DNA of 64,000 nucleotides from Polynucleobacter necessarius (lineage in GTDB: Bacteria > Pseudomonadota > Gammaproteobacteria > Burkholderiales > Burkholderiaceae). Shown piece by piece: positions 2,464 to 59,744 of this stretch. A program made the translations under genes and the position numbers. The stretch spans positions 372,001-436,000 of the forward strand of contig NZ_LT606948.1 of NCBI RefSeq assembly GCF_900095185.1, given 5' to 3'. The notes below the pieces were generated by a model, which was not told the origin of the DNA, ran no database searches, and saw only the letters and a list, made by a program, of their open reading frames with translations. Every line of letters begins with the position of its first letter. The stretch's first letter is position 1.

Positions 2464-2490
2464 TATAGGTAAATGGCTAAAATGATTACC

Positions 2491-3962
2491 ATGAATATGG
2501 TGACCCCCCGATTTAGCCGCGATTAACGCCCTTCAATCCAAATTGGTAGCGGCATTACGCCCAATACTCCCTGAATACGCTCCTTTATGGGAACCTGAAG
2601 ACACTATTCCCTATGAATGTAATGGCCCTGGCGGCGTATAGAAGGATGCCGTTGGCTGTTGCCCTTCCCGAGACTAAAAAACAAGTCGCCCAAATTTTAA
2701 AAATTTGTTATGCGATGCAAATTCTAGTAGTACCCCGTGGCTCAGGAACTGGATTATCCGGTGGAGCCATGCTCCTTTTGCACAAGGTCTAGTGTTGTCC
2801 TTGGCTAAGTTGAAGAAAATTATCAGCATTGATCCATTTACTCGTACTGCAGTTGTACAACCTGGCGTTCGCAATCTTACAATATCAGAAGCAGTTGCTT
2901 ATATTGGTCTGTACTACGCACCAGATCTATCCTCCCAAATATTCTGGGGGCGTACATTGCCGTAAATATGGTCTCACCTTACATAACGTTCTTCGAGTAC
3001 GAGCAATACTCATGAATGGTGAGATCGTAGAATTTGGTGGTTTAGCGCCAGATGATGCCCCTGGCCTAGATTTAATTGCCGTCATGATGGGCAGCGAAGG
3101 CATGTTGGCCGTGGTCACGGAAGTCACTGTCAAGTTAGAGCGGCCAAACCAAAGCTTGCGCGCGTCATCATGGCGAACTTTAATGACATTGAAAAAGGTG
3201 GAAATGCAGTTGCTGCCATCATTGCCGCCGGAATTATTCCCGCCGGCTTAGAGAGGATGGATAAAGCGACTACTCGTGCCGTGGAAGAATTTGTTCACGC
3301 AGGCTGTAACTTAGAGGCGGAGGCTATTTTGCTTTGCGAATCTGATGGCACACCAGAAGAAGTTGCAGAAGAGATAGAGCGAATGACTCAAGTCCTAGAA
3401 GATGCTGGTGCAAGTGGCATGCGGATATCGAAAGATGAAGACGAACGCCTAAAGTTTTGGAGCGGACGTAAGAATGCCTGTCCTGTTGCTGGGCGATTAG
3501 CGGCTTATTACTACTGCATGGATGGCACTATTCCTCCGCACTACATATTGCTACGTTATTGAAGCGCATCCCAGGCATGGAAAAGAAGTATGGTCTCGGA
3601 TGCTTAAATGTATTTCATGCAGATGATGGCAATATGCATCCCCTAATTTTGTTTAATGGCGCCGATCAAGATGAGTGGCATCGCGCTGAAGAGTTCGGTG
3701 CTAAAATTTTAGAGGCTACTGTGTAGTGCTTGGTGGCACCATCACAGGCGAACATGGTGTTGGTATCGAAAAAATTAACTCTATGTGCGTTCAATTTGGT
3801 GAGGGTGAACGTGAATCCTTCTGGGGTGTAAAGAGCGCCTTTGATCCAGAGAAATGACTGAATCCAAACAAAGCAATTCCCACTTTGAATCGCTGCGCCG
3901 AATACGGTCGCATGCGAATTAGCGGCGGTCAATTGCCTCACCCAGAATTGAAACGCTTCTAA
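2491..3962 (+). pseudogene. glcD: Glycolate oxidase FAD-linked subunit GlcD (heavily decayed)
   Basis: GlcD is the FAD-binding catalytic subunit of glycolate dehydrogenase. Fragments in all three frames align in order: PEYAPLWEPEDTIPYEC, PRGSGTGLSGGAM (the FAD-binding PP loop), KKIISIDPFTRTAVVQPG, VMMGSEGMLAVVTEV, WSGRKNA, then GGTITGEHGVGIEK and DPEK-stop-LNPNK near the end. There are frameshifts near 2505 (C6 run), 2630 (extra C) and 2775. A small deletion near 2945 removes the residues between SSQI and SGGVHC. Further shifts lie near 3145, 3535 and 3720, and an in-frame TGA at about 3855. At least seven lesions make this an old pseudogene. It is the first gene of a glcD-glcE-glcF operon, all of it ruined. 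Confidence 0.92.
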
Positions 3963-4093
3963 TGAGCCATTCCGATTTACAAATCAGCAAACTTCCGTGA
4001 AAAAATTCTGAAAAGCCCTTGAGGCAGTTCAAGAGCAGCTAAGATCCGCCTTTGATCCCGCTTGGCGTATTTGCCACTAAACGTCTTCCATAA
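3962..4093 (+). pseudogene. glcE: Glycolate oxidase subunit GlcE, ends only (internal deletion)
   Basis: An ATG overlaps the glcD stop (TAATG), as expected for the glcD-glcE junction. The first codons read MSHSDLQISKL. Within about 130 bases the sequence reaches a stretch readable as a GlcE-like C-terminus (SAFDP then GVFATKRLP, in two frames) just before glcF. GlcE is normally around 350 residues, so roughly 1 kb is missing and only the two ends remain, with extra stops. This is inference from position and short matches; the remnant alone would be hard to identify by homology search. Confidence 0.6.
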
Positions 4094-4100
4094 GTTTTCT

Positions 4101-5380
4101 ATGCAAACTCAACTCGCCCCTCAATTTGCCAACAGACCGGAAGGTATCGAGGCCACCCGCATTCTGGGCAAATGTGTTCACTGTGGTTTTTGTACTGCCA
4201 CCTGCCCCACCTATCAACTGCTAGGTGATGAATTAGATGGTCCACGTGGGCGCATCTATCTCATCAAACAAATTGCTGAAGACCAGGCACCAACAAGAAA
4301 AACTCGTCTTCATTTAGACCGCTGCTTAACCTGTCGTAACTGCGAAAGCACCTGCCCTAGCGGTGTACAGTACGGTAACTTAGTCGATATTGGTCGTAAG
4401 TGGGCTGAAGAAAAGACTCCAGAGCGTCCGCTTTCTCAAAGACGAACCCGCTGGGCATTAAAAGAAGGTTTAACCAACCCTGCATTGTTTAATACTGCAA
4501 TGACATTGGGTCGCTTAGTCCGCCCATTAATGCCGAGTGGGACTCAGCGGAAAATCCCTTTGATAATAAATAAGGTTCTCGCAAGCTCTATGGATCCTCA
4601 TGCAAGACCTACTACCAGCCACAAACGTAAGATGGTCTTACTTGAGGGTTGCGTACAACCCGGCATGTTGCCGAATATTAATTCAGCAACAGCGCGCGTA
4701 CTCCATGCCTTAAAAATTCAACTCATTAGCACCGCAAGCGCAACATGTTGTGGAGCTCTTCGCTACTACCTCAATGATCAGGCTGGCGGACTCGAAAATG
4801 CCAAGCAAAATATTGATGCTTGGTTGCCCTTAGTCGAGAGCGATATTGAGGCCATTGTGATAACAGCCAGTGGCTGTGGTGTGATGGTAAAAGATTATGG
4901 TCATTTATTTGCAAATGACCCAGCTGACGCCGCCAAAGCCAAGAAAATCTCTGAGGTAACGAAAGACCTCTCAGAAAGCCTGCCATCCTTACAAAATGAA
5001 CTTGTACAGGTTCTTGGCACGGACCCAAAGCCGGGCGTGCTGTATCACCCGCCTTACACCCTACAACATGGTCAGCAAATACGAGGTAAGGTTGAAGGAC
5101 TGCTCTCCAGCATTCGTATTGGGGTGCGCTTATGTGTGCAGATAGTCATCTATGCTGCGGATCGGCTGGTACCTATTCCGTTACCCAGCCCGAGCTATCA
5201 GAACAACTTCGAAAACATAAATTAACCCATCTCAATGCTGCATGCGAAGAATCTGGTGCTGAGGTGATCGTTTCTGGAAATCTTGGTTGTATTTCTCATC
5301 TTCAGCAAGACAACAAACCTGTTGTTTACTGGATTAAGATCGTGGATCAATCGATCAGCAAATCCTCTCAAGTCGCATGA
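4101..5380 (+). pseudogene. glcF: Glycolate oxidase iron-sulfur subunit GlcF (frameshifted)
   Basis: GlcF carries electrons from GlcD through two [4Fe-4S] clusters. Both cluster motifs are intact near the N-terminus: CVHCGFCTATCPTY and CLTCRNCESTCPSG. Two cysteine-rich CCG-type domains follow, the first as CCGALRYYL and the second as HLCCGSAGTYS. The frame is open from the ATG at 4101 to about 5118, then shifts; the rest (CADSHLCCGSAGTYS to SSQVA) reads in a second frame to 5380, as if one base had been lost near 5130. It is much less damaged than glcD and glcE, but useless without them. Its stop overlaps the start codon of the next gene. Confidence 0.9.
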
Positions 5381-15485: not shown

Positions 15486-18300
<2,815 letters not shown>

Positions 18301-18313
18301 CTATCCTTATCCT

Positions 18314-18858
18314 ATGAAACTACTCGGATCCCTCACTAGCCCCTATGTACGTAGGGTACGCGTTGTTTTTTACGAAAAAAGGTTGATGTTGACCTTGAAT
18401 TAGAGAATGTCTGGTCTGCAGACACCAAAATGAGTGCTAGCAACCCCTTAGGGAAGGTGTCTTGCCTCATTGCTGAAGATGGCGAGCCTATCTATGATTC
18501 CCGCGTGATTGCTGAATATGCAGACGGCCTGAACCCAGTCAGCAAGCTTCTCCCCACAGACAATCGGGAGCGTGCGGCTGTAAAAACCTGGGAAGCCCTA
18601 GCCGATGGAATTATGGACACAGGTATTTTGGCCCGTTTAGAGCGCACTTTACGCCCTGCAGAGCAGCTGGGAGAAAACGCTTGGTATCAAGGTAATCAAA
18701 TGACCCTAGCAGATATCGCAGTGAGGTGTGCAATTAGATATTTATTATTTCACTTTCCAGAAGTGAAATGGCAAACCCAATATCCAAACTTAGATCGCCT
18801 GTTTCAAAAGTTAATGCAACGAACTGCTTTTATTGAGACAGCTCCGCCTGCCGCTTAA
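18314..18858 (+). pseudogene. Glutathione S-transferase family protein (frameshifted near start)
   Basis: The first 20 codons from ATG 18314 read MKLLGSLTSPYVRRVRVVFYEK, a GST thioredoxin-fold N-terminus with the S-P-Y-V-R glutathione-site motif. At an A6 run (18375-18380) the frame is lost; seven A would join directly to KVDVDLELENVW and onward to the end, with DSRVIAEYAD and the helical C-terminal domain (MTLADIAVRCAIRYL). The remaining 142 codons contain no further damage, so there is one lesion only. Substrate unknown. Lies between purB (divergent) and mnmA (convergent). Confidence 0.85.
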
Positions 18859-26639: not shown

Positions 26640-28133
26640 AGGATGGGCCCTTATTTTTTCGTTTACGACTATTTCTGATTAGTTTTTTATGGCTGGCTAG
26701 CTCTGTGGCCGCAGCCGATCGATCTATACCCCTTTAGATTCCTCAGACCGTCGTCAATAGTCTAGATCGCAATCAGATCCCCCTTGATTCGGTGAGCATT
26801 TCTATCTCAGAAATTGAGTCTAGGCGCCCCGGCAAACATACCGCCAGAAAAGTATTGGATTGGCGCGCCAACGGTCTTATGAATCCTGCTTCAACAATGC
26901 AGCTACTAACAACGCTGACGGGTTTAGATATTCTTGATCCGCAATATCGATGGCGTACTAACATTTATACCGATGTCGTAATTCGACAAGGGGTATTGAA
27001 AGATAATCTCTTTTTACAAGAAGCGGGGGATCCACAATTAGCTCCTGAAGAGCCAGCCAAGATGATGAAAGAGCTGCAAAATCTTGGCATTCAGACAATT
27101 GATGGAAATTTATTTTTTGATCGAAGCGCTTATGCGGATAGTGTTATGGAGCATAACACTATTGACGGTAAATCCTTACGTGCTTACAACGTTCCACCTG
27201 CTCCATTACGTTATGCATTTAGAACGCTTTCATTTCAATTAAGTAAATCTCGCACTGCTGACTTTATAGATATTACTTATACGCCAGCACTTTCGAAATT
27301 AAAAGTTGCTAACCAAATGTAATTGGTAGATCGTGTATGCGATAACTGAAAAAGTAATATTCGCTTTAATCTCGATCCCGAAGGGATCGGTACTACTAAT
27401 CAAGCCTTAATCGCTCAATTTTCTGGAGCATTTCCAATGCTCATGCAGGGGTGTTAATTACAACGTGGTTGCATTAGATGTCAACACTTTTCTAACTCAG
27501 AGCTGTGCGGCTGCATGGGGGTTTGGCAGGCGGTACTTGGACACAGCCTCCAGTTGGCAAAAATGGTAACGTACTGCTGGCAGCAGCGCGACTATCCCTT
27601 CAGTTTGAAGTGAAGGGATTACACTAGCTGATGGTGTTTTCGAGATTAACAAATATTCTAATAGTGTCATGACCCGCCAACTTCTACTAACTTTGGCATT
27701 AGAAAAAATGGGTAAACCTGCGACCACTGCTAATGATGACCTTGTTGCGCAAAGTTGGCTTAGACAGAATGGCTTGGATTTTCAGGGAATTGTGATTGAA
27801 AACGGTTCAGACCTCTCTCGTAATGAGGCAATCATCTGCAAACCAGATGAATCAACTCTTAATAGCTGCTCGTGATTTACCAGTAGGCGATCTTTTTTAT
27901 AGCAGCCTATCAATTGCCGGTACTGATGGCACCATGCGTAATCGTCTAATGAGTCAACTGCGGACGTTTTTACACCTCAAGAAGAAACCAGAAGCCAGAA
28001 TCAAAACCGGCCCTCTCATTGATGAGAGGGCAATCTCAGGTTATGTCTTGAGTAAATCTGGAAAAATATATTCGGTTACTTCATTCATCAACCACCCAAA
28101 TGTCTGGAAAGGATTAGAGGCTCACGATCACTG
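26640..28133 (+). pseudogene. dacB: D-alanyl-D-alanine carboxypeptidase/endopeptidase (PBP4)
   Basis: PBP4 trims peptidoglycan in the periplasm. A decayed signal peptide (LFLISFLWLASSVAAAD) comes first, then a stop in the mature N-terminus (26739-26741). A long open part follows, IPLDSVSISISEIESRRPG to SKLKVANQM, where the S-x-x-K box reads NPASTMQLLTTL: the catalytic Lys is Gln. Three or more shifts and stops follow between 27322 and 27850. The S-x-N box is recognisable in KYSNSVMTRQLLL, and the KTG box remains as IKTGPLIDERAISGYVLSKSGK. Both active-site damage and frame loss show it is non-functional. Positions of the ends are approximate. Confidence 0.88.
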
Positions 28134-28503
28134 ACTATCGTGGCTATTCGAAGATAGTTCAGAACCAAAACATGCACGCTGAAGACGGTCTCTAACACCG
28201 TCCCATTCTTCACCGACCGGCGGTTGCGGAAACAAAATTAAATCCCACCCCTGCTGATCTAGATCACGCAGAGAGCGATAAAGCCGGCTTGCGAATGTCA
28301 CCGGATTTCTAGATAGAACCACTTCTTCTGCATCAATTGAGGGGTGATCCTCCAATCCTAAGGAGGATTCAGAATCCCAAACCACCACTGCAACTCGAGA
28401 CTTTGTATCTGGATATTCACTCAAAGCGTCTAGAACACGTCCAGGAGCATACAAGCACAAAGGGGTGGTTGGCGCGTAATGGGCTTTGAGACTACCAGAT
28501 ACC
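28128..28503 (-). pseudogene. Sua5 C-terminal domain, cut off by a frameshift
   Basis: The segment RVSGSLKAHYAPTTPLCLYA to SSNSHDSQ is the C-terminal Sua5 domain that follows the YrdC domain in long threonylcarbamoyl-AMP synthases. It is in a frame one base off from the intact YrdC part upstream, and its own frame has no internal stop. A one-base insertion (or two-base loss) near 28495-28510, within ACCCCTAAGGG, explains the break. Without a start of its own it is unlikely to be made. Confidence 0.75.
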
Positions 28504-29235
28504 CTTAGGGGTATCTGATGATGTTTGATTGTCCACTCCAATGCTCTTGATGTCTCCAGGCAGGTATACCTTCACACCAGTTTTAGACAAAATTTCCCCA
28601 GGAGTTCTTGCACCAGGTCTAAGAAGAGCTGCTTTGTCACCCGAAGATAAATCAATAATCGTGGACTCAATACCTACTTCACAATCACCGCCATCCAAGA
28701 CCATCAAATCCAACATCCCCTCAAATTCATGACGAACGTCTGCAGCGCTTGTTGGCGACGCTTTTCCAAAGCGATTAGCTGATGGCGCTACTATGCCTCC
28801 TTTAAATTTTCTCAACAATTCTTGGGTAATCGGATGGGCTGGCGCACGAATTGCCACTGTATTCTGCCCACCAGTTAATTCATTTAAAACACTTTGATCT
28901 TTTTTCAAAACTAGTGTTAAAGGACCCGGCCAGAATGTATTAACTAGTTTAATCGTATCTTCTGACAAATCGCTTACCCAAGGTGCCAATAATGCAACCC
29001 AATCAATTTGTGACTGATCAAATTTATCTGGTGCAGCTAAGTGAACAATAAAAGGATGACGCAAAGGACGTCCCTTCGCACTAAAAATTTTCTTGATGGC
29101 CTCAGGATTTTTAGCATCAGCTCCCAAACCGTAAACGGTCTCAGTAGGAAATGTAACCAATCCACCATCACGCAGAGTTTGCACTACCTCATTGATTCCT
29201 ACTGATGACTGCAGTGGCTTACTGTCGCTAGACAT
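28492..29235 (-). CDS. tsaC: L-threonylcarbamoyladenylate synthase, YrdC domain (C-terminally truncated Sua5)
   Basis: Makes threonylcarbamoyl-AMP for the essential t6A37 tRNA modification. The 247-residue product keeps the whole YrdC domain: TFPTETVYGLGADA near residue 34, KGRPLRHPFIVHL, TVAIRAPAHP, and the S-x-N loop APSANRFGKASPT. The frame then runs into a stop after DTPKGIW, losing the Sua5 domain that lies downstream in another frame. E. coli TsaC works with a YrdC domain alone, so activity is plausible; in Sua5-type enzymes, however, the extra domain influences catalysis. Last gene of the pgk-to-sua5 minus-strand run. Confidence 0.85.
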   Translation of the reverse strand: MSSDSKPLQSSVGINEVVQTLRDGGLVTFPTETVYGLGADAKNPEAIKKIFSAKGRPLRHPFIVHLAAPDKFDQSQIDWVALLAPWVSDLSEDTIKLVNTFWPGPLTLVLKKDQSVLNELTGGQNTVAIRAPAHPITQELLRKFKGGIVAPSANRFGKASPTSAADVRHEFEGMLDLMVLDGGDCEVGIESTIIDLSSGDKAALLRPGARTPGEILSKTGVKVYLPGDIKSIGVDNQTSSDTPKGIW

Positions 29236-29237
29236 CC

Positions 29238-30422
29238 CTAGGGCTCAATTCCTAATTCGGCAGCAACAGCAGTACAGTTTTGGCGAGCCTCATTGAGAGC
29301 TTCACCCAAGCAATTGATATGGCCCATTTTTCTACCAATGCGTGGCTCTGATTTGCCATATAGATGCAACTTTGCATCTGGGTGAGCAAGCACCTTATTC
29401 CAAGCAGGCTCGCGAGCCTTATCTTCGCTACCCTCAAACCAAAGATCGCCCAATAAGTTCAGCATGGAAACAGGTGTAAGCAAGCGAGTATCCCCCAAAG
29501 GTAATCTTGCCATCGCTCTTACTTGCTGCTCAAACTGACTACTCACACAAGCATCCATGGTGTAGTGACCCGAATTATGCGGACGAGGCGCAATCTCATT
29601 GGCAACAATGTCCCCATTCTTGAGAACAAAGAACTCGACACAAAGCACTCCAACATAATGAATCTTACGAATGAGCGCCTTCGCTGCATCAATAATTTTC
29701 TTCTCTTGAGCAGGCTTTAGTGATGGGGCTGGCACAGTGGAGGTATGCAATATGCCATCACGATGAAGATTTTGAGAAACTGGGTAGGCTACTACTGCAT
29801 CATCATAGCCACGCACAACTAGCGCTGATACTTCAAAATCTAATTCCATGCGCTTTTCAAGCACACAAGGCACGCACCCCAATTCATTCCAGGCAAGCGA
29901 AAGATCATCTTTACTGTAAACCGTTGCTTGACCCTTGCCGTCATAACCCATGCGAGCAGTCTTTAATATTCCAGGAAAAAGATCGGCTGGAGTTTGAGTA
30001 ATATCAGCCTCATGCTCAATCACAAAATTGGGAGCTGGTCCAATATTGGTTTCCGATTTCCACGTAGCCAAGAAATTTTTCTCGGCAATACGGTTTTGCG
30101 CCAACGAAACACAACTGCTTCGCGGCGCTACAAACACCCCCAAAGACTCCAGCTCATCCAAGGCCTGAGCCGGAACATTTTCAAATTCAGTGCTGACGGA
30201 TGAACATAAAGTAGCCATTTCTTTAAGGGCTGCACTATCTGTGTACTCAGCTTGAATAAATTTTTCAGCAATTGAGCCAGCAGGGCTATCCGAACCAGGA
30301 TCCAATACGCAAACTTTGTAACCCATAACTTGAGCAGCTTGAGTAAACATCCGCCCCAATTGACCACCACCCAAAATTCCTAAATATGAACCCGGCAAAA
30401 TGGGTTCTAAAAAGTCTGCCAT
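29238..30422 (-). CDS. purK: N5-carboxyaminoimidazole ribonucleotide synthase
   Basis: ATP-grasp enzyme that carboxylates AIR using bicarbonate. The 394-residue protein begins with GILGGGQLGRMFTQAA, has the ATP-grasp core (GILKTARMGYDGKGQATV) and the metal-binding ending GDIVANEIAPRPHNSGHYTMDA. It starts 4 bases after the purE stop and ends 2 bases before tsaC. Intact. Confidence 0.95.
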   Translation of the reverse strand: MADFLEPILPGSYLGILGGGQLGRMFTQAAQVMGYKVCVLDPGSDSPAGSIAEKFIQAEYTDSAALKEMATLCSSVSTEFENVPAQALDELESLGVFVAPRSSCVSLAQNRIAEKNFLATWKSETNIGPAPNFVIEHEADITQTPADLFPGILKTARMGYDGKGQATVYSKDDLSLAWNELGCVPCVLEKRMELDFEVSALVVRGYDDAVVAYPVSQNLHRDGILHTSTVPAPSLKPAQEKKIIDAAKALIRKIHYVGVLCVEFFVLKNGDIVANEIAPRPHNSGHYTMDACVSSQFEQQVRAMARLPLGDTRLLTPVSMLNLLGDLWFEGSEDKAREPAWNKVLAHPDAKLHLYGKSEPRIGRKMGHINCLGEALNEARQNCTAVAAELGIEP

Positions 30423-38135: not shown

Positions 38136-38614
38136 ATACCTAAACTCGCTAGACTCTTTCAAAAGGCGGATGATGTAGTTGATGCATGGTGCGATACTTT
38201 ACGTCATCGCGATGTACAAAGCGCCTTAGATATTTGGCTTGATGACGATTCCATTACCTGCGTTCTTCCAGAAGGGCGCCGGCACCGCCTTACAGGTCAT
38301 GCTGAAATACGCGAAGGCCTACTCTACAAAGGCTACTCTCAAAATAGTCCTTATTTCTAGAGCCAATTGCCTGCATAAGTCACTCCGTATTGGGTGCGGC
38401 CGTCTATGACACTACTGAAGCTGCTCATCTTAGAGCCGATCAGATAGAAGCAGAATTTTTTCTGAACATCACGCTCTTGCTTCTGCAAGATAGGCAAGGT
38501 TGGCGGATTGCACATCTCCATGCTAGCCACTCTACTGAAGAAACTTTCGACGCTCCATCTGCACCTCACGGTCTTCATGAATCATCATGGATAATCAAGT
38601 GTTGCAGTCACTGA
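38136..38614 (+). pseudogene. NTF2/SnoaL-like protein (start codon and frame lost)
   Basis: The sequence PKLARLFQKADDVVDAWCD, LDIWLDDDSITCVLPEG and HRLTGHAEIREGL is the first half of a SnoaL-like (NTF2 fold) protein. The initiator position reads ATA (38136-38138) instead of ATG. After about 70 codons there is a TAG and frame loss. The second half continues from about 38385 as AAVYDTTEAAHLRADQIEAE and QGWRIAHLHASH. Function of the family member unknown. Confidence 0.7.
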
Positions 38615-39199
38615 TGAAGTGGCCTAATGTGCCTGATTGTTTTGGCTGGCTTGCGTTAGATCGGCGTGGTCAATGGCGCATGCGTGTTGAGTTTGCCCAA
38701 CTAAATCAACTTACCGGATAAGCAATAAAAAATGTCGCTCTTAATGAGTTCATTAGTCGTAACTATGCATGTGATGAACATGGTAGATATTTTTTCAAAA
38801 TGGCCCGCAGCGCGTTTTTATTACCTTAGATGCCACCCCCTGGATTGCACGCATCATTCCAAATAAGAAAGGCCAAAGTCTGGTAACCCAATGCAACCAA
38901 ATAATCAATTCAAGTGCGACTGTAAGCGATGAAAACGGCAATCTTTACATTGTTGGAACAGTAAACCATACCTTGTATAATAGAGTCAGTAAAGATCGAA
39001 TTGAAGTTCAAGAACTTTCATCAGTTGCTATGCTGCATGATCATGATCTGGATCAGTTTTCTGAGCTAGCTCAGCTACGCGAAGAAGCCTGTAGTTTTGG
39101 TGGCATCTGGAGTTGGCAAGGGGCTCCATTGTCTTAGATCCCATTCACTCCGAAGAATTAAGTTCTCGCTTTCACTGTATAGCTAAACCACAACCTTAG
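38587..39199 (+). pseudogene. Conserved Burkholderiales hypothetical protein, decayed
   Basis: Pieces in several frames read LMKWPNVPDCFGWLALDRRG, EFISRNYACDEHGRYFFQNG, VFITLDATPWIARIIPN, and SDENGNLYIVGTVNH, ending with CSFGGIWSWQGAPLS. This resembles a conserved hypothetical family of betaproteobacteria often found beside an M48 peptidase; I think it is one of the DUF2944/DUF2946 group but am not certain of the number. There are stops at about 38719 and 39137 and at least two frameshifts. No function known. Confidence 0.6.
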
Positions 39200-39240
39200 C
39201 CTGGAGCTTGCTTACCCTGCTCCTTAAGCTCATCTTGATA

Positions 39241-40651
39241 TTAACGTTGCATTTCTCGCAAATGGGCGTCGATACTCGAACCTTGATAAAAATCTGCCAC
39301 ACCGGCTGCACGAGCAATTCGTAACTGCTCTATAGCCGAAGGCCAAGCACCCTCTAATGCATATTTTTCACCTAGCACGTAATGGCGCATTGGTACATTA
39401 TTAGCTTGATCATATGACTTAGAAAGCAATGACCACCAAACAATTTCATTCGGCTGAGACCTAATACGCGCCTTTAACCAGGTGCTTGCCTCATTGGTAC
39501 GGCCACGCTTGAGTTCAGCATTAATCATCGCAGCTCCAGCAGCTTAAGACTGGGGGTGGGCGCGCAAAGTGGCTTGAGCAATTTGCAATGCTGCTTCACC
39601 CTTACCCTTGGCGAGATTGCGTGCCTGCTGTAATTCAGTCTCTGCAAGCGCAATTTTTCCTTGCCGTTGAGCAACTAACGCTAACCCATCAAAACCTTCA
39701 AGTTGCTTACTCAAACTATCGAACGTATTTTTTAAATCTTAACAGGTGGGTACGAACGTAGGCTGGAACACCTTTATCCATAATTCCCGTTGCTTTTTGC
39801 AGGCGCTGGAAAAAGCCTGGCGCACCATTTACGTCATATCCGCTAGCATCAAGAATCTGAAAACCAATACGATCTGCCTCTTGTTCAGCACCCCTTGAAT
39901 AGGAGAGCTGGTTATTTATAGTGACTGCCTGTTCACCCTGCGTCAAGCCACCTGCAGCCTGTGGGTTGTGAGACATAGCCAAGGCACCAAGCATCATGCC
40001 AGCGATAGCAATAATCATCATATTAGTAGTTTGCTTATCCATCTGCCGTGCTAAGTGACGCTGCAATATATGGGCTGTTTCATGCCCCATGACTGAAGCT
40101 ACTTCAGATTCTGTGTCTGCGCTCACAATGAAACCCATATAAAAACCAATAAATCCACCAGGCAATGCAAACGCATTAATACTGCTATCTTTCACAGCAA
40201 ACACTTCAAAGTTATAGGCACCGCTTCCCTGCTCATTAGCACCACCCAACTGTAGCTTGCGAACAGCCTGCAATAAACGACGCTCCATATAATTCAGAAA
40301 ATCATAAATTGGTAAGTCATTCGAATAATCAGGGTCTGAGCGAAGTTGACGCATGATCATTTCGCCGTACTTACACTCATCTACCCGACTTAATGCATCA
40401 CCACCTGGGTCACCCATATCAGGTAGAATAATAGTGGGCTGACTTTGTAATGAATTAGGAGTAGAGACGCATGAGCAGGTCACGCAGCAGGCGACTGCAC
40501 TGCTCTACTGATATTAATGGCGGCCAGAATTGCCATCCACAGAAACCTCGCCGGCAGGAGCTGCATAGACCGGAAATCCAGAATAAGCCAATCCCAGCTT
40601 TAGCTGGATAGCTAAAGCACGACTCCAAAAAGAGGTTTGAATAGCTGACAT
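39241..40651 (-). pseudogene. M48 family metallopeptidase with TPR tail (BepA/LoiP-like)
   Basis: Periplasmic M48 peptidases take part in outer-membrane protein quality control. A signal-peptide start MSAIQTSFWSRAL at 40651 runs to VDGNSGRH and a TAA, then the main part reads GGDALSRVDECKYGEMIMRQL, NAFALPGGFIGFYMGFIVSA, the zinc motif VMGHETAHILQRH and SYSRGAEQEADRIGFQILDASG. A frame loss at about 39740 and stops near 39545 and 39716 cut off the C-terminal TPR-like part (AELKRGRTNEASTWLKAR). The HExxH site is intact but the protein cannot be made whole. Confidence 0.85.
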
Positions 40652-48377: not shown

Positions 48378-48960
48378 ATGCGTCTTCTCACTATCGCTTC
48401 CGGCAAGGTAATGCCATTATTTGGTAATCACCGCCCTAATTACAACTCTGTTCCTTCGGCAATTTGTAAAAAGCACGTCAGCACATTAGAAAATCCAAAT
48501 TCAGTAGAAATCACTCCGCTTGGCGTTAAAGGTGATGAACAAGCCGATTTATCGGTACACGGTGGTATTGAAAAGGCCATATATATTTATCCTGCTGAGC
48601 ACTACGCGTTTTGGAACGAACTTCTCACGCGAGGAACCAAGAAACCCGTTTCCTTACGACATGGGACTATTGGCGAGAATTTCACTATTGAAAACAGAGA
48701 TCTTTGTGGGCGATCGCTTAGTGATTGGCGAACTAGAGTTTTCCGTTGTCAAACTCCGTGAACCTTGTTTTAAGTTCAATGCTGCGCTTGGATATAAAGG
48801 CGCCAGCAAAGCAATGTTGCAGTCCGGCTTTAGCGGCTGGTATTTACGTGTATTAAAAATGGGGGCTCTTACCGCTGACGCTAATATTTTCGTCAGCCCA
48901 GGATCAAGCGAGATCTCGATCTCACAACAAACTCACAAGCTCTTAGGCAATCGCAACTAA
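48378..48960 (+). pseudogene. MOSC domain protein, YiiM type (frameshifted)
   Basis: MOSC proteins bind molybdenum cofactor sulfur or detoxify N-hydroxylated bases. The first part has VEITPLGVKGDEQADLSVHGG, the MOSC start, and IGENFTIE. At an A4 run (48691-48694) the frame moves by one; three A would give ENFTIETEIFVGDRLVIGELEF and the rest, with REPCFKFNAALG (conserved Cys) and GWYLRVLKMG. One lesion only. The gene was otherwise complete. Confidence 0.85.
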
Positions 48961-48976
48961 AAAAATTTATAGGAAT

Positions 48977-49006
48977 AAAAAAGCCCGATCATTTTGTGAT
49001 CGGGCT
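48977..49006 (-). terminator. Terminator of the MFS transporter remnant
   Basis: A perfect 10-bp stem AGCCCGATCA / TGATCGGGCT with a 5-base loop is followed by five T on the minus strand. It sits between the converging MOSC and MFS remnants and outlived both. Confidence 0.85.
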
Positions 49007-49042
49007 GTTAATTACTTGAAACTAAAGATTATCTACATCTCA

Positions 49043-50638
49043 TTAGTCACGTGCATAGATATCCACGTCTTTGGTGTCTTTTACAAACAGTGTGCCGATT
49101 ACCAATGTCATCGCAGCGATGATGATTGGATATCAGAGACGGTAGTAAATATTACCGTTTTGCGCAACCAAGGCGAAGAAGATCGTTGGCAATAAGCCGC
49201 CGAACCAACCGTTACCAATATGGTGTGGCAAGGACATTGAAGTGTAACGAATACGGGTTGGGAACATCTCAACCAACATCGCAGCGATTGGACTATAAAC
49301 CTTGGTTATCCAGTACACCAAGAAACACAATACAGCAACGTAGTTAATATCAGCTGGATTCGCTTTAGCTGGAGCCAAACCTTTTGCTGAGTAACCGGTG
49401 ATTTCTGTATCACCAATCTTCACTACTGCTGTACCACCAGCAAGACCAGCTATCGTGCTGTAGCTAGCAACGTTTGAAGCCATAGCTTGTTTTGCAATAT
49501 CGCAAGAACTCGTGAACTTCGCAGTACCTGTTGGGTTGAACTAAAAAGTACATTCGCTCAAGTCAGCAGTAATCGTAGCTGGTGCAGTTGCCATTGCTTT
49601 TTCTAACGCAGGATTAGCGTAGCGAGTCAAGGCATTGAACACTGAAACTGGTGTGTTTGGAATGTAAGTAATGATCGCCAATAACAAGCCGCTCATGATG
49701 ATCACTTTACGACCAATCTTGTCAGACCAGGCACCGTAGACTATGAAGAATGGTGTACCGATTACCAATGAAGCAGCAATCAACAAGTTCGCTGTCTTAG
49801 CATCTACTTTCAACACTTGGGTGAGGTAGAACAAAGCGTAGAACTGACCTGTATACCAAACCACGGCTTGACCTGCAACCAGACCAAACAATGCCAAGAT
49901 AACAAGCGTCAAGTTCTTCCATTGGCCGAATGACTCGGACAAAGGAGCCGTAGATAATTTGCCTTCTTCTTTCATCTTCTTGAAAGCTGGTGATTCATTC
50001 ATGGACAAACGAATCCATACAGAAATCGCCAACAATTCGATATAAGCGATGAAAGGAATACACCAACCCCAAACATCGTAGTCTGGACCTGTGAATTCAC
50101 GCGTGAACAAAATCACGAGTAAGGAGAGGAACAAACCAAGAGTAGCTGTTATCTGAATCCATGCTGTGTATGCGCCACGCTTGCCGTTAGGTGCATGTTC
50201 TGCAACAGAAAAGTAGCACCACTACCATACTCACCGCCCAAAGCCAAACCTTGAAGCATACGCAATGCAATCAAGCTCACTGGAGCAGCAACGCCGATGG
50301 TTGCGTAGTTAGGCAGAATACCCACGATAAAGGTTGCACCACCCATTAAAAGGATGGGTACCAAGAAGGTGTACTTACGGCCAATCAAATCGCCTAAGCG
50401 ACCGAACACCAAGGCGCCAAATGGGACGCACGATGCAACCAGCAGCAAAAGCTAACAACGCGAAAATGAAGGCAGAGCCAGCATCTAGATCTGAGAAGGA
50501 CTGCTTGGCGATAACGACAGCCAAAGAACCGTAAAGATAAAAGTCATACCACTCAAAAAAACCGTACCTAATGAGGATGCAAAAATAACTTTGCGCTCTT
50601 CAGCGGTCATTGGAGCTGCTTTAGTTGATCTTGACATC
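49043..50638 (-). pseudogene. MFS transporter, metabolite:H+ symporter type (broken)
   Basis: The protein would have been about 530 residues. The start MSRSTKAAPMTAEERKVIFASSLGTVF runs into an expanded T7 run (plus-strand A7, 50555-50561; five are expected before EWYDFYLYGSLAV). Then come FGRLGDLIGRKYTFL, LRMLQGLALGGEYG (family signature), GRKVIIMSG, FPTRIRYTSMSLPHHIGNGWFGG. Further breaks are frame loss near 50150, one near 49540 and a TGA where Trp is expected at about 49135. Substrate unknown; related transporters carry dicarboxylates, shikimate or proline/betaine. Confidence 0.87.
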
Positions 50639-54047: not shown

Positions 54048-55648
54048 ATGCAAGCAAAATGGGGAATCCGAGGGATGGCGGTAGCACCGCACTCTCTCGC
54101 TTCTGAGTCAGCACTAGCAGTTCTGCGCGAGGGTGGTAATGCGCTTGAGGCAATGGTGGCAACGGCAGCTACGATTACTGTGGTATATCCACATATGAAC
54201 TCCATGAGTGGTGACTCATTCTGGGTAGTGCATTCTCCAGGCAAAGCCATGGGCGGAATCGATGCTTGTGGTGCAGCTGCAGGCTGAGCCACTAAGCAAT
54301 GGTATGCAGAGCGTGACCATTACCAAAGCCATCCCATTTCGAGGCGCAGTAGCAGCAAATACTGTTGCTGGGACCATCTCTGGGTGGGGAGTCGCCCACA
54401 AACTTTCCAAACAAGGCTTAGGCGGCAAGATTCCTTTGTCCCGCTTACCAGCTGATGCAGTTCACCATCCAGAAGCTGGGGTTCCCGTTACTTACAGTCA
54501 ATCGAGTTTGACAGAAAAGAAACGGGAAGAGCTAAAAATTATCCCCGGCTTTACAAAAACGTTTTTGGTGAATGGGAAAGCGCCTGCAGTTGGTAGCATT
54601 TTTAAACAAGGTCGACTTGCAAAAACCTTACGGCAAATTGCAGAAAACGGTACAGATGATTATTATCGTGGTGATCTTGCAGATCTTCTAGCCAAAGAAC
54701 TCACTGATATTGGTAGTCCACTGCGTTTCAGTGATCTGAATCGTCACCATGCCAAACTCATTGATCCACTGGAGCTCAAACATAACTTAGGCAATGTGTA
54801 CAACATGATTCCGCCAACTTAGGGCGTAGTCTCACTAATGATTATTGACATCTTGAATCAATTAAACCTAAAACGCTTGAAGGTTGATAGCTCCGAATAT
54901 GTGCATCACTGTGTAGAGGCCACAAAACAGGCATTTAAGATTCGCGATCAATTTGTGACAGACCCAGCGTATATAACAAAAAATGCACAATCTTTCTTGT
55001 CACCCGCTTTTCTGAAAAAATTGGCTAAAAATATTGATCCCAATAAAGCGCTTCCCTGGGGTCACGGCAAAGGACCGGCAGACACTATTTGGATGGGTGT
55101 GATTGATGGCGATGGTAATTGCGTGTCATTTATTCAAAGCATGTATCACGAGTTTGGCGCAGGAATTGTGTTGCCAAAGTCTGGCGTGAATTGGCAAAAT
55201 CGTGGATGCAGTTTTTCATTAGATCCGAAGATACCCAATCATCTAGAGCCCTACAGAAAACCATTTCATACACTCAATCCTGCGATAGCCCTATTTAAAG
55301 ATGGTCGCTCAATGGTTTATGGAACGATAGGTGGTGATGGCTAACCTCAAACGCAGTGCGTTGTCTTTACTCGCACTGCTACCTATGGTCTAGCCCCACA
55401 AGATGCTATTAGTCGGCCGCGTTGGTTGCTCGGTCGCACATGGGGACAAACGAGTGATAGCTTAAAACTCGAATCACGCTTTAGTCCATGGGTTGCTAAG
55501 GAAGTTTCATGCTCTAGGCCATGAAATTGAGATGCTCGATGCTTTTGATGAAACTGTTGGACATGCAGGATGCATCATTCGTGACCCATCTAGTACCTTA
55601 CATGGCGGTTGGGATCCCCGAAGCGATGGCGCAGTTAGCGCGTTTTAG
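54048..55648 (+). pseudogene. Gamma-glutamyltransferase family protein (broken)
   Basis: Such enzymes hydrolyse or transfer gamma-glutamyl groups. The parts are SALAVLREGGNALEAMVATAATITVVYPH, MSGDSFWVV, then a TGA at about 54285; GAVAANTVAGTISGWGVAHKL, TLRQIAENGTDDYYRGDLADLLAKEL, a TAG near 54820; PADTIWMGVIDGDGNCVSFIQSMYHEFGAGIVLP (the catalytic Thr region of YwrD-like members) and FHTLNPAIALFKDGRSMVYGTIGGDG, then a TAA in place of the next residue and further frame loss. It follows dctM by about 40 bases. Its end overlaps the end of the next, convergent gene. Confidence 0.87.
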
Positions 55649-56264
55649 TAATCCACATCTTGGGTACGCGCAGATCCCAATAAATAGCGGCTGCGCGTAA
55701 ACCAAAGATGCCGAGCATACAAATCACAGAACCTTCGATAGCATATTGAGGTAAGAAATTGAGCACTAGAACATAGGCACAACAGCCCAATGTCACGGGA
55801 ATAGCGTAAAGCTCATGCGACATGATGAGGGTTTTTCTTCCAGCCAAAATATCGCGTATCAAGCCCCCGCCAATAGCAGTAATGACGCCCAGAATAACTG
55901 GAGCAACGGGAAGGCCAAACCCCATTGTCGAGACTTTATTGGCCCCCTGAATACCAAAAAGGGCAGCGCCGAAACCGTCTATATATAGCATCCAACGATA
56001 AATTTGTGGCTGAGTCAAAAAAGATTCTGCAAAAAAAGTGAGCACGCTAGCACCCAAAGCAAGCCAAACATATATTTGGTTCTCAGACCAAAAAACAGGG
56101 GACTCCAAAATAATATCGCGAATTGTTCCGCCACCAATTGCAGTAATGAGGCCAAGCACTAATACGCCGAATAGATCAACACCACGGTCAGCAATAGCTA
56201 AGACTCCAGTCACAGCAAATGCCATGGTTGCAATGACGCCAATCCAAAATTGAATATCTTCCAT
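55635..56264 (-). CDS. TRIC-like trimeric channel family protein (UPF0126, YicG-like)
   Basis: The 209-residue membrane protein has two copies of the UPF0126 domain, each with three helices. Each copy carries the glycine-rich kink motif, AIGGGTIRDIIL in the first and AIGGGLIRDILAG in the second. Bacterial homologues of TRIC channels conduct cations; the ion here is not shown. It is complete although both flanking genes are broken, so it is probably still under selection. Confidence 0.9.
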   Translation of the reverse strand: MEDIQFWIGVIATMAFAVTGVLAIADRGVDLFGVLVLGLITAIGGGTIRDIILESPVFWSENQIYVWLALGASVLTFFAESFLTQPQIYRWMLYIDGFGAALFGIQGANKVSTMGFGLPVAPVILGVITAIGGGLIRDILAGRKTLIMSHELYAIPVTLGCCAYVLVLNFLPQYAIEGSVICMLGIFGLRAAAIYWDLRVPKMWITKTR

Positions 56265-56363
56265 AGTCTGAAGTCTAATGCACTTTTTATGACACTAGGC
56301 TTAAATAGCCCACCTCAATTTATTCAAAATACTGTTAGTCATGAACTTAAACGGGGTAATGCA

Positions 56364-57011
56364 ATGACAACAAATCTCTACAGTTTTTGGCGAAGTTCTG
56401 CCGCATTTCGAGTCCGAATTGCCCTGAATCTCAAAGGCATAAGCTATGACGTCATCCCTATTCATCTCAGCAAAAACAGCGGCGAGCAAGTTGGGGAAAT
56501 TTACAGCAGTAAAAATCTGAATCGACTAGTGCCTTTACTCGAAGAAGGCGACAATAGGATCCATCAGTCGCTAGCGATAATTGAATACCTTGAAGAGATA
56601 CAGCCCCAGCCTTCTCTACTCCCAACACTAGCGATTGATCGAGCATGGGTTCGTGCAATCGCCATGGATATTGCTAGCGACATTCATCCAATTAATCATT
56701 TACGTGTCTTACGCTACCTCATTAAAAAACTTGGTGTCAGCAATACAGCAAAAAATGAGTGGCATGCGCACTGAATAAAAGTTGGGTTAGATAGTTTAGA
56801 AAAACAATTGAGCGCAGTCCCTAGAGCGGGAACGTTTGCTTATGGCAATCAACCGGGCTTAATTGATGCTTGCTTAGTGCCGCAACTATTTAATGCATTA
56901 AGCGCTCAAGTGGACATCAAGCCATACCCCACGCTTATGAAAATCTTTCATGAAAGTATGCAACTATCTGTCTTTATCCAATACCTCTTGGGACAACCAA
57001 ATGGACGCTGA
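56364..57011 (+). pseudogene. maiA: Maleylacetoacetate isomerase / zeta-class GST (single nonsense mutation)
   Basis: Converts maleylacetoacetate to fumarylacetoacetate in tyrosine/gentisate breakdown. The start MTTNLYSFWRSSAAFRVRIALNLKGISYD carries the zeta-GST site S-S-x-x-x-R-V-R. The frame is open except for a TGA at 56772-56774, where Trp is expected in WHAH-x-IKVGLDSLEKQL. After the stop the same frame continues with NQPGLIDACLVPQLFNAL to the end. A second nearby FAH-family remnant (46.9-47.8 kb) may have belonged to related aromatic catabolism. Confidence 0.85.
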
Positions 57012-57015
57012 AGGC

Positions 57016-57946
57016 CTAAACCCGATTCCCCCACCACAGGAACAGTAAGAGAGTAATCAAGGAGCACACTGTAGTGATCAATACCACCCTAGAGATCACA
57101 CTCCCATCAGCTTTGTAATGTTGTGCCAACATAAAAAAGGTCCAGTACCCGTTGGTAGTGCGCTCAAAATCACTATGGCACTAACCCATAGGCTTGATAA
57201 CTCTAAGATTGGTCCAGCAAGTATCCAAGCAATCAATGGCTGCAACATCAACTTTGCCAGACTAATACTCCAGGCTTGTAAAGGAGCGGCGGTACTTTTT
57301 TGCAACAAAAATAAGCCGATCGACATGAGTGCGCAAGAAGTGGCAGCAGCAGCCAAAAATGAAATGACCTGCGAAATGGGGTCATATAAAGTCAGATCGC
57401 TCGCTGCCCACCCCAATCCCGCAACTGGCGCAATCAGCAATGGATTACTACATAGAGATTGAATAACACTCCAGATAATCTCATGTGACTTTTTATGCGA
57501 CAAGACAAATTCAATAAATATTGTTGCTAAAGCAAATATCACAAACACAATAAATGTAGAAATAATGACTGGTGCTAAACCATCTTGTCCAAGAGCAAGC
57601 ACACACAAAGGGATGCCCATATATCCCGCGTGTTGGAATAAGAGGCGCTCAGACCATTCAAGCTGGCAGCCTCTAGCTCTCGATTGCTTACCCAACTAAT
57701 GGGTAACACTAGCGCAAACACAATTAAACCACTTAGAAAGAATGCGGTAATAAAGCCTGGTTGCCATAAGGCTTGCCACCCACTATTCGCAGCAAAGCTA
57801 AACAGTTGAGCTGGTAAGGCCAACCACACTACAAACCGATTCAATTCGGTAGATGCATTAATTCCCAACTTGCCCGTTCGACCGACAGCATACCCAATCA
57901 GAATGAGTAAAAAAACAGGAAGAACTACATTAAAGACGTAGGGCAA
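57016..57946 (-). pseudogene. AEC family transporter (auxin efflux carrier-like), frameshifted
   Basis: The first part reads VFNVVLPVFLLILIGYAVGRTGKLG and NRFVVWLALPAQLFSF. The frame is broken near 57620, where CGCG replaces an expected CG, then continues with GYMGIPLCVLALGQDGLAPVII to LSALPTGTGPF. A second shift near 57130 moves the end (MLAQHYKADGSVISRVVLITT) to another frame, stopping at 57016. Ten-helix inner-membrane transporters of this family export or import organic anions such as malate or malonate. It begins 10 bases after the carbonic anhydrase gene. Confidence 0.87.
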
Positions 57947-57956
57947 AATGAAGAGG

Positions 57957-58490
57957 CTAAGTTAGAAAATCTTTTTCAGCGTTTTTATAGTGTTGCGCAT
58001 TTTTGACATAGCGACCTGCAATGTCATGGATGCCAGCGAGCTGGTCTACAGTAAGCTCTTTGACCGCTTTGACAGGAGTTCCCAAAATCATAGAACAATC
58101 TGGAAATTCTTTACCTTCAGTGACAAATGCGCCAGCACCCACTAAACAGTTTCTACCGATCTTGGCGCCATTCAAAATCACTGCACCAATACCAATCAAA
58201 CTGCCATCGCCAATATGAAAACCATGCAGCATAACTTGATGCCCAACAGTCACGTATTTACCAATGACCAGAGGATAGCCAGGGTCGGTATGCAAAACAG
58301 ATGCATTTTGCACATTACTGCCATCTCTTATTTGAATCAGATCGTTATCACCACGAATAACTACTTTGGGCCAGATGCTCGCATCCTTGTGGAGATTTAC
58401 TTTGCCAATTACTTCAGCACTATCGGCAACCCATGCTCCATCAGCTAGCTGCGGAGTGTGTCCGTCAAGTTCATAATAGCCATGACTCAT
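57957..58490 (-). CDS. Gamma carbonic anhydrase family protein
   Basis: A 177-residue left-handed beta-helix protein of hexapeptide repeats (VIGKVNLHKDASIWPKVVIRGD to GIGAVILNGAKIGRNCLVGAG). The three metal-binding His of gamma carbonic anhydrases fit HTDPGYPLVIGKYVTVGHQ and VMLHGFHIG. Many YrdA/PaaY-like members have weak or unknown activity, so the enzymatic role is family inference. Intact, while the AEC gene behind it and amtB upstream are broken. Confidence 0.9.
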   Translation of the reverse strand: MSHGYYELDGHTPQLADGAWVADSAEVIGKVNLHKDASIWPKVVIRGDNDLIQIRDGSNVQNASVLHTDPGYPLVIGKYVTVGHQVMLHGFHIGDGSLIGIGAVILNGAKIGRNCLVGAGAFVTEGKEFPDCSMILGTPVKAVKELTVDQLAGIHDIAGRYVKNAQHYKNAEKDFLT

Positions 58491-58538
58491 TATAGATATG
58501 AATCAGGCTATAAATCAATGACTTTGCTCTACACATAC

Positions 58539-59744
58539 CTACCAGTTTGGCTCGCGATCTGGAGCGGAAGAAATACGATGCACGCTTAAATCGGCACCTT
58601 CGAATTCCTCTTCTTGTGACATCCGAATACCCAAGACAGCCTTCAGGGCGCCATAGACCAAGATGCCGCCGATCAGAGCGATGCCGACGCCTAACGCACT
58701 ACCAATCAGTTGGCCGGTAAAAGTAACATCACCAATTCCACCAAGCGCCTTGATTCCGAAGATGCCAGCAGCCAGTCCGCCCCACAGCCCACACAATCCA
58801 TGTACAGGCCAAACTCCAAGTACATCATCAATCTTCAAGAGGTTTTGCACTAATGTGAACATGTAGACAAATCAAGCGCCCGCAACCAACCTAACAAATA
58901 AGGCACCCAATAGGTGCATTAAGTCAGAACCAGCACATACTGCAACTAATCCAGCTAAAGGACCGTTATAAGCAAATCCAGGATCATTGCGTCCAACTAC
59001 CCAAGCAGCTAGAGTGCCGCCGCCCACCATTGCCATCAATGAATTCATCGCCACTAAGCCGCTTATCCTGTCAATTGTTTGAGCGCTGATTACATTAAAA
59101 CCAAACCAGCCTACCGCCAAAATCCAAATACCCAACGCTAAGAAGGGAATGCTAGATGGAGGGTAGGCAGAGATTTGACCTTCTTTTGTATAAGGACCGC
59201 GACGTGCGCCCAGCAGAATAATGGCTGGCAAAGCAATCCAGCCCCCACTGCATGCACTACTACTGATCCAGCAAAGTCATGACACTCTTCACCAGCGAGG
59301 CCTTTGATCCAAGTCTGAATACCATAATGTTGATTCCAGGCTTTTCCTTCGAAAAATGGATACACAAATCCCACCAAGATAAAGGTTGCAATCAGCTGAG
59401 GATTAAATTTAGCGCGCTCAGCAATACCACCCGAAATGATCGCTGGAATGGCTGCAGCGAAAGTCAGCACAAAGAAAAACTTCACTAACTCGTAACCATT
59501 TTTCTCTGCTAATAATTCCGCACCAGAAAAAAAAGTGCACCCCATAAGCGATGCTATAACCAATACAGAAATAAGCAATTGTTGAAACTGCAAAGTCAAC
59601 TAGGATTTTGACAAGCGCATTGACTTGGTTTTTCTTACGAACAGTTCCCAACTCAAGGAATGCAAAACCTGCATGCATGGCAAGAACTATGATGGCGCTA
59701 AGCAATATGAATAGAGCATCACTGCCCGTCTTGAATGTTTCCAT
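58539..59744 (-). pseudogene. amtB: Ammonium transporter AmtB (broken)
   Basis: Parts in order: ALFILLSAIIVLAMHAGFAFLELGTVRKKNQVNAL, AYGVHFF, then a T8 run (plus-strand A8, 59527-59534; seven are expected before SGAELLAEKNGYEL) shifts the frame. ISGGIAERAKFNPQLIATFILVG, FHDFAGS-type block with Cys, frame loss near 59240, PAIILLGARRGPYTKEGQ, GFNVISAQTID, then a stop near 58874, and VWPVHGLCGLWGGLAAGIFG to the end. At least three lesions. Ammonium must enter by diffusion or another carrier. Confidence 0.9.

Follow-up and report, generated by a model that had tools for sequence, protein, structure and literature searches.

A sua5 gene split between its two domains in a reduced Polynucleobacter genome is probably a young pseudogene

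What does it mean when the first gene of t6A synthesis is split by a single base? The question is raised by sua5 in a window of 64,000 nucleotides (the whole stretch of DNA that was analysed) from a Polynucleobacter genome, which we label G000; the other G-numbered labels denote the genomes compared with it. In this gene, on the minus strand, a net one-base shift in a variable linker splits the YrdC domain from a conserved loop and the SUA5 domain. With modest confidence, we regard it as a young pseudogene in a reduced, heavily pseudogenised, probably host-dependent Polynucleobacter, in which t6A synthesis would be crippled or dispensable.

Frames and domains of the sua5 locus

The 5' part of the gene (28492..29235, minus strand) is an ATG-started open reading frame of 247 codons containing a complete YrdC domain (PF01300; residues 20 to 208, 179.7 bits in Pfam), part of the linker, and a short tail, which alignment with relatives showed to be out of frame over the final few codons. 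This frame terminates at 28494-28492, with a product that lacks the SUA5 domain. The 3' part (28128..28571, minus strand, next frame) encodes the conserved inter-domain loop RVSGSLKAHYAP and the SUA5 domain (PF03481, Sua5_C; 63.4 bits in Pfam) and is open from 28571 to its own stop at 28130-28128, with zero internal stops. The two frames are both open over 80 bases (28492..28571, minus strand), and a DNA alignment with 29 Polynucleobacter genes, each in a single frame, mapped the one-base difference to the variable linker before the loop. These results bear out the preliminary description, which had reported a one-base shift near 28500 that cuts the SUA5 domain from YrdC and a detached domain free of further stops. 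It had also proposed that the event is recent or that the shift is rescued; because there are no further stops, the first of these probably holds.

The sequence can be aligned over the full gene length to intact Polynucleobacter sua5, and it resembles a regular Sua5 (L-threonylcarbamoyladenylate synthase) in both domains, the HYAP motif of the loop, and the Sua5 signature residues, but differs in that the frame is broken between the domains. The preliminary description had raised the matter of a second intact tsaC or sua5 copy; profile searches of the whole genome returned a single place for PF01300 and a single place for PF03481, and there was no second YrdC-family (Sua5/TsaC-family) gene. 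The detached SUA5 domain had 0 matches to solved structures at an E value of 0.001, although Pfam detects the domain, and no relatives in viral contigs were confirmed.

Upstream of sua5 lies an intact gene of 394 amino acids (29238..30422, minus strand), which we take to be purK. On the other side, a dacB pseudogene (PBP4, peptidase S13; 26672..28179, plus strand; G000 398672-400179) is convergent with sua5 and overlaps its end; compared with the intact gene of G024, it is spread over three frames and has 12 stops.

Disruption of sua5 in the genus and decay of the genome

The genus set comprised 186 genomes including that of the window, with one assembly per species. In 86 of 90 same-genus relatives, the SUA5 domain lay within one open frame of 349 to 410 codons. 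The four exceptions were G089 and G037, whose genes hit contig edges (with one TGA inside the match in G037), G067, whose only YrdC-type protein is 28% identical, and G017, in which the gene is broken. G017 also has a reduced genome (1,550,368 bases in one contig), and its sua5 (locus L078, G017:C1:1270000-1285000; about 1276248-1277315) is split into four pieces by three frame breaks, of which one is inside the YrdC domain, just after the KGRPSNHPLIVH stretch. In a sua5 tree, G017 joined G016 (support of 0.801) on a branch apart from G000; G000 was placed beside G024 with a weak support of 0.238, and only the separation of G000 from G017 was used. Since G017 sits on another branch and its lesions differ from that in G000, the two breaks look, as far as these sequences tell, independent.

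All genus genomes without a PF01300 match (4 of 186, in a search that listed frame lengths for part of its matches) were rejected as further cases of loss. In G180, for which the upstream gene served as a neighbour marker for an assembly gap, contig C63 ends within that gene, at the place where sua5 should come next; in G213, the SUA5 half is present at a contig start; and G225 and G229 are listed as 87% and 84% complete and also have no match to the upstream gene.

The window's genome has 1,655,757 bases in one contig, is listed as 100% complete, and had a GC content of 44.8% in a 360-kb sample. Its named matches, at 78 to 82% protein identity, came from eight Polynucleobacter records and a single Burkholderiaceae MAG. 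The endosymbionts of Euplotes assigned to Polynucleobacter necessarius are described in the available text of PMC5018217 and PMC11253213 as having reduced genomes of 1.6 to 1.8 Mb with many pseudogenes and a GC content of 44 to 46%, and the window's genome is like them in genus, reduced size, pseudogene load, and GC content. Judged by size, GC content, and decay, the organism most likely lives as an obligate endosymbiont, like those of P. necessarius.

The extent of decay was measured by comparing frames of at least 200 amino acids from 360 kb of G024 with 360 kb of G000. Of 244 G024 frames, 213 had a homologue and 202 of those were at least 80% covered; the count leaves out 11 genes with lower coverage and 31 without a homologue in the sample. 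Fifty-five of the 202 genes were broken in G000, 36 with a frame change and 42 with a stop; stops occurred without a frame change in 19 of the 55, and 8 had one frame switch and no stop. These stop counts may include matches that run past a frame break, as sua5 itself scored one stop in the census and zero when its frames were examined directly. The same test found 28 of 181 genes broken in G017, while the controls gave 2 of 179 for G024 against G081 and 3 of 182 in the reverse direction, with zero frame changes in either. Both the in-frame stops elsewhere in the sample and the clean controls speak for many of the breaks in G000 being real.

We scanned 50 of the 55 broken genes against NCBIfam at an E value of 1e-25, leaving out the five that cross stretch edges, and 12 of the 50 had no family match. 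Broken genes above the curated cut-offs included those for FolE2, HrcA, GlcF, PBP4, MaiA, PdxA, IlvA, QueF, MutY, heme o synthase, cytochrome c oxidase subunit I, GshA, GshB, AcuI, SlmA, an AmpG-family transporter, and L-threonylcarbamoyladenylate synthase (sua5); others, below the cut-offs and only loosely named, were LivFGM-like, Amt-like, MsbA-like, LpxL-like, LpxO-like, and gamma-glutamyltransferase-like. Most of the named genes can be dispensed with in a host, and sua5 is the one that we would class with the core of translation. The context is thus one of decay, yet a gene such as sua5 is not a typical casualty of it.

Besides dacB and sua5, eleven further census genes are broken in the window (2473-5371, 18264-18840, 38587-40648, 48378-50637, and 54048-59744): those for an FAD-linked oxidase (named by eye), GlcF, a GST, a BepA-like protease, a 6-hydroxyaminopurine-reductase-like protein, an MFS transporter (by eye), a gamma-glutamyltransferase-like protein, MaiA, and an Amt-like transporter, and two unnamed genes. 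Elsewhere, the broken genes for heme o synthase, cytochrome c oxidase subunit I, GshA, and GshB lie at G000:C1 510703-517391 and 527642-529797. Since queF is broken in both G000 (G000:C1 482976-483795) and G017, queuosine, another anticodon-loop modification, may have been lost too.

Constraint on the broken gene and the rest of the pathway

The dN ratio of sua5 in G000, taken relative to the G081-G024 comparison, was 1.23 (1.22 for the YrdC part and 1.33 for the SUA5 part). This is at the 81st percentile of 120 intact genes (median of 0.95) and the 48th of 44 broken genes (median of 1.24), the comparison genes being those also covered in G081 and dS being near saturation. For sua5 of G017, the ratio was 1.79, which ranks at the 92nd percentile among 142 intact genes and at the 65th among 26 broken ones. 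We also counted changes at columns invariant in 48 intact genus sequences, a count that depends on how isolated a branch is. In G000, 6 of 100 such columns were changed in the YrdC part and 2 of 65 in the loop and SUA5 part, and G017 had three private changes in each; when each of the 48 intact sequences was left out in turn, the median count was 0 for either part, and the highest count in YrdC was 5. Thus, the YrdC domain that the preliminary description had called perfect over 247 codons is complete as a domain, but it has these six changes and the ORF ends in out-of-frame codons. As signs of relaxed selection, and so of a pseudogene, the six changes and the ratio of 1.23 are weak. The intact tsaD gene differs at 38 of 357 residues between G000 and G024 and at 29 of 357 between G081 and G024, the corresponding values for sua5 being 69 of 367 and 52 of 368; the relative excess is about the same in the two genes, and the rate does not single out sua5.

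The other t6A genes are tsaD, tsaE, and a further PF00814 match that has the size of tsaB. Their frames are open and free of stops in G000 as well as in G017, so that among the four t6A genes only that of the first step is disrupted in either genome. The tsaE frame of G000 (G000:C1:93512-93931) has 236 codons compared with 171 to 186 in four relatives and is perhaps an extended frame.

Reports from other bacteria bear on whether the pathway can be lost. The preliminary description had called the t6A enzyme normally essential, which needs qualifying: according to the available part of PMC6504816, tsaB and tsaD are non-essential in Deinococcus radiodurans, tsaD is non-essential in Synechocystis, and tsaD and tsaB have been disrupted in B. 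subtilis, although none of these is sua5 itself. Among reduced genomes, the tendency appears to be to keep TsaC: small Serratia symbiotica genomes retain tsaB, tsaC, and tsaD, with tsaE missing in one (PMC5013485, in part), and in Mollicutes, where few modification enzymes withstand erosion, TsaC and TsaD belong to those that do (PMC4014445, in part), which would speak against easy loss and against a pseudogene, while an excerpt of PMC9035817 lists TsaC among the factors lost in obligate endosymbionts, which would speak for loss. In a literature search for Polynucleobacter together with Sua5/TsaC, none of the matches listed named Polynucleobacter, which does not prove that nothing has been published.

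The good state of most of the gene raises the question of whether the organism has an intact sua5, the shift being a one-base error of sequencing or assembly. A lone lesion in an otherwise well-kept gene without a stop, the open tsaD, tsaB, and tsaE frames, the rate excess shared with intact tsaD, and the 8 of 55 broken genes with one frame switch and no stop would all fit such an error. We nevertheless consider it unlikely, as many broken genes of G000 have in-frame stops, the same method found 0 frame changes in the 179 and 182 control genes, sua5 is broken in G017 as well, and the site in G000 is outside any long homopolymer.

It is also conceivable that the cell produces both the YrdC part and the loop-SUA5 part, the latter from a TTG or CTG start or by frameshifting, and that the two act together. 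The break lies within the variable linker, which makes up little of the gene, and neither conserved part is damaged by it; the conserved columns of the SUA5 part are kept, as are TsaB, TsaD, and TsaE. Upstream of the loop, however, only CTG at 28559 or TTG at 28541 could start the second frame, and by eye we found no well-placed ribosome-binding site for either. Transcript slippage in symbionts has been described at runs longer than CCCC, the longest in the 80-base overlap, and inspection of the overlap by eye revealed no known recoding motif; the rescue that the preliminary description had offered as its second option is disfavored on the same grounds. The shift is absent from the 29 aligned relatives, each of which is in one frame, and a clade-wide programmed shift was rejected for this reason. 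The three breaks in sua5 of G017 could not be explained in this way either, and overall we give a two-piece or recoded enzyme little probability.

Sua5-type residues and the fate of t6A

A truncated YrdC core that works alone would make the locus a case of Sua5 turning into TsaC, as the preliminary description had proposed. The available text of PMC10321239 makes the case that SUA5-domain loss turned Sua5 into TsaC on several occasions and treats Archaeoglobi as intermediates, and the first ORF of the window is like TsaC (the YrdC-only synthase) in ending before the SUA5 domain. It differs from TsaC in keeping the Sua5 signature proline and interface motifs. By the motif definitions of the same source, the YrdC domain of G000 retains the signature proline (APSAN) and K-x-SPT, in the string IVAPSAN..GKASPT, and GIE, in the string VGIE; the active-site histidine is also kept, within the HPFIVH stretch. 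The threonine or serine of TsaC is absent from the signature position, and among the residues checked none showed the TsaC-like changes that the source leads one to expect with SUA5 loss. The position of Asn62 in Pa-Sua5 is aligned with a histidine in both G000 and G024, which is thus not new in G000. As described there, the atypical Sua5 of Archaeoglobi likewise lost loop and SUA5 sequence from a Sua5, but through progressive deletions accompanied by active-site changes, whereas the window's sua5 has one abrupt frame shift without such changes; an abrupt route is doubted in that text, which cites a Pa-Sua5 that lost stability and/or activity when truncated by its entire SUA5 domain. With Sua5-type motifs kept, 55 of 202 genes broken, and sua5 lost by other lesions in G017, the proposed conversion did not hold up, and we judge it very unlikely.

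That two separate Polynucleobacter lineages lost their own TC-AMP synthase and keep TsaD, TsaB, and TsaE since the activated intermediate or the enzyme comes from a eukaryotic host, so that a universal tRNA modification would now depend on the host for its first step, is a far-fetched reading of the same pattern.

We therefore return to a young pseudogene. A single one-base shift in the linker would have hit the only sua5 of the genome, and translation would yield a YrdC piece of 247 residues that lacks both the gating loop and the SUA5 domain. This piece is most likely inactive or weak because it is still built like Sua5 and not like TsaC, and t6A formation would be reduced, lost, or tolerated, with tsaD, tsaB, and tsaE not decayed. 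Endosymbiosis is likewise a conclusion from genome features, whereas the frame break, the single copy, the decay in the 360-kb sample, and the open TsaB, TsaD, and TsaE frames are observed directly. The decay of the genome (55 of 202 genes compared with 2 of 179 and 3 of 182), the apparently independent loss in G017, and Sua5-type residues without TsaC compensation argue for a pseudogene. Against it, the sole lesion is in the least conserved part of the gene, as if tolerated, the SUA5 part has only 2 changes in 65 columns and no stop, and keeping TsaB, TsaD, and TsaE is most sensible if t6A is still made.

Taken alone, the break in sua5 just adds to the many broken genes of a decaying genome, and its mechanism, gene decay, is ordinary. 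The place is interesting: the first t6A step is broken twice, by one lesion in G000 and three in G017, while the TsaB, TsaD, and TsaE frames stay open. What deserves testing is that the first enzyme has been lost more than once with the other steps still in place, and the two genomes offer a place to ask whether t6A can be lost stepwise, which would begin with the first enzyme, or is instead fed from outside.
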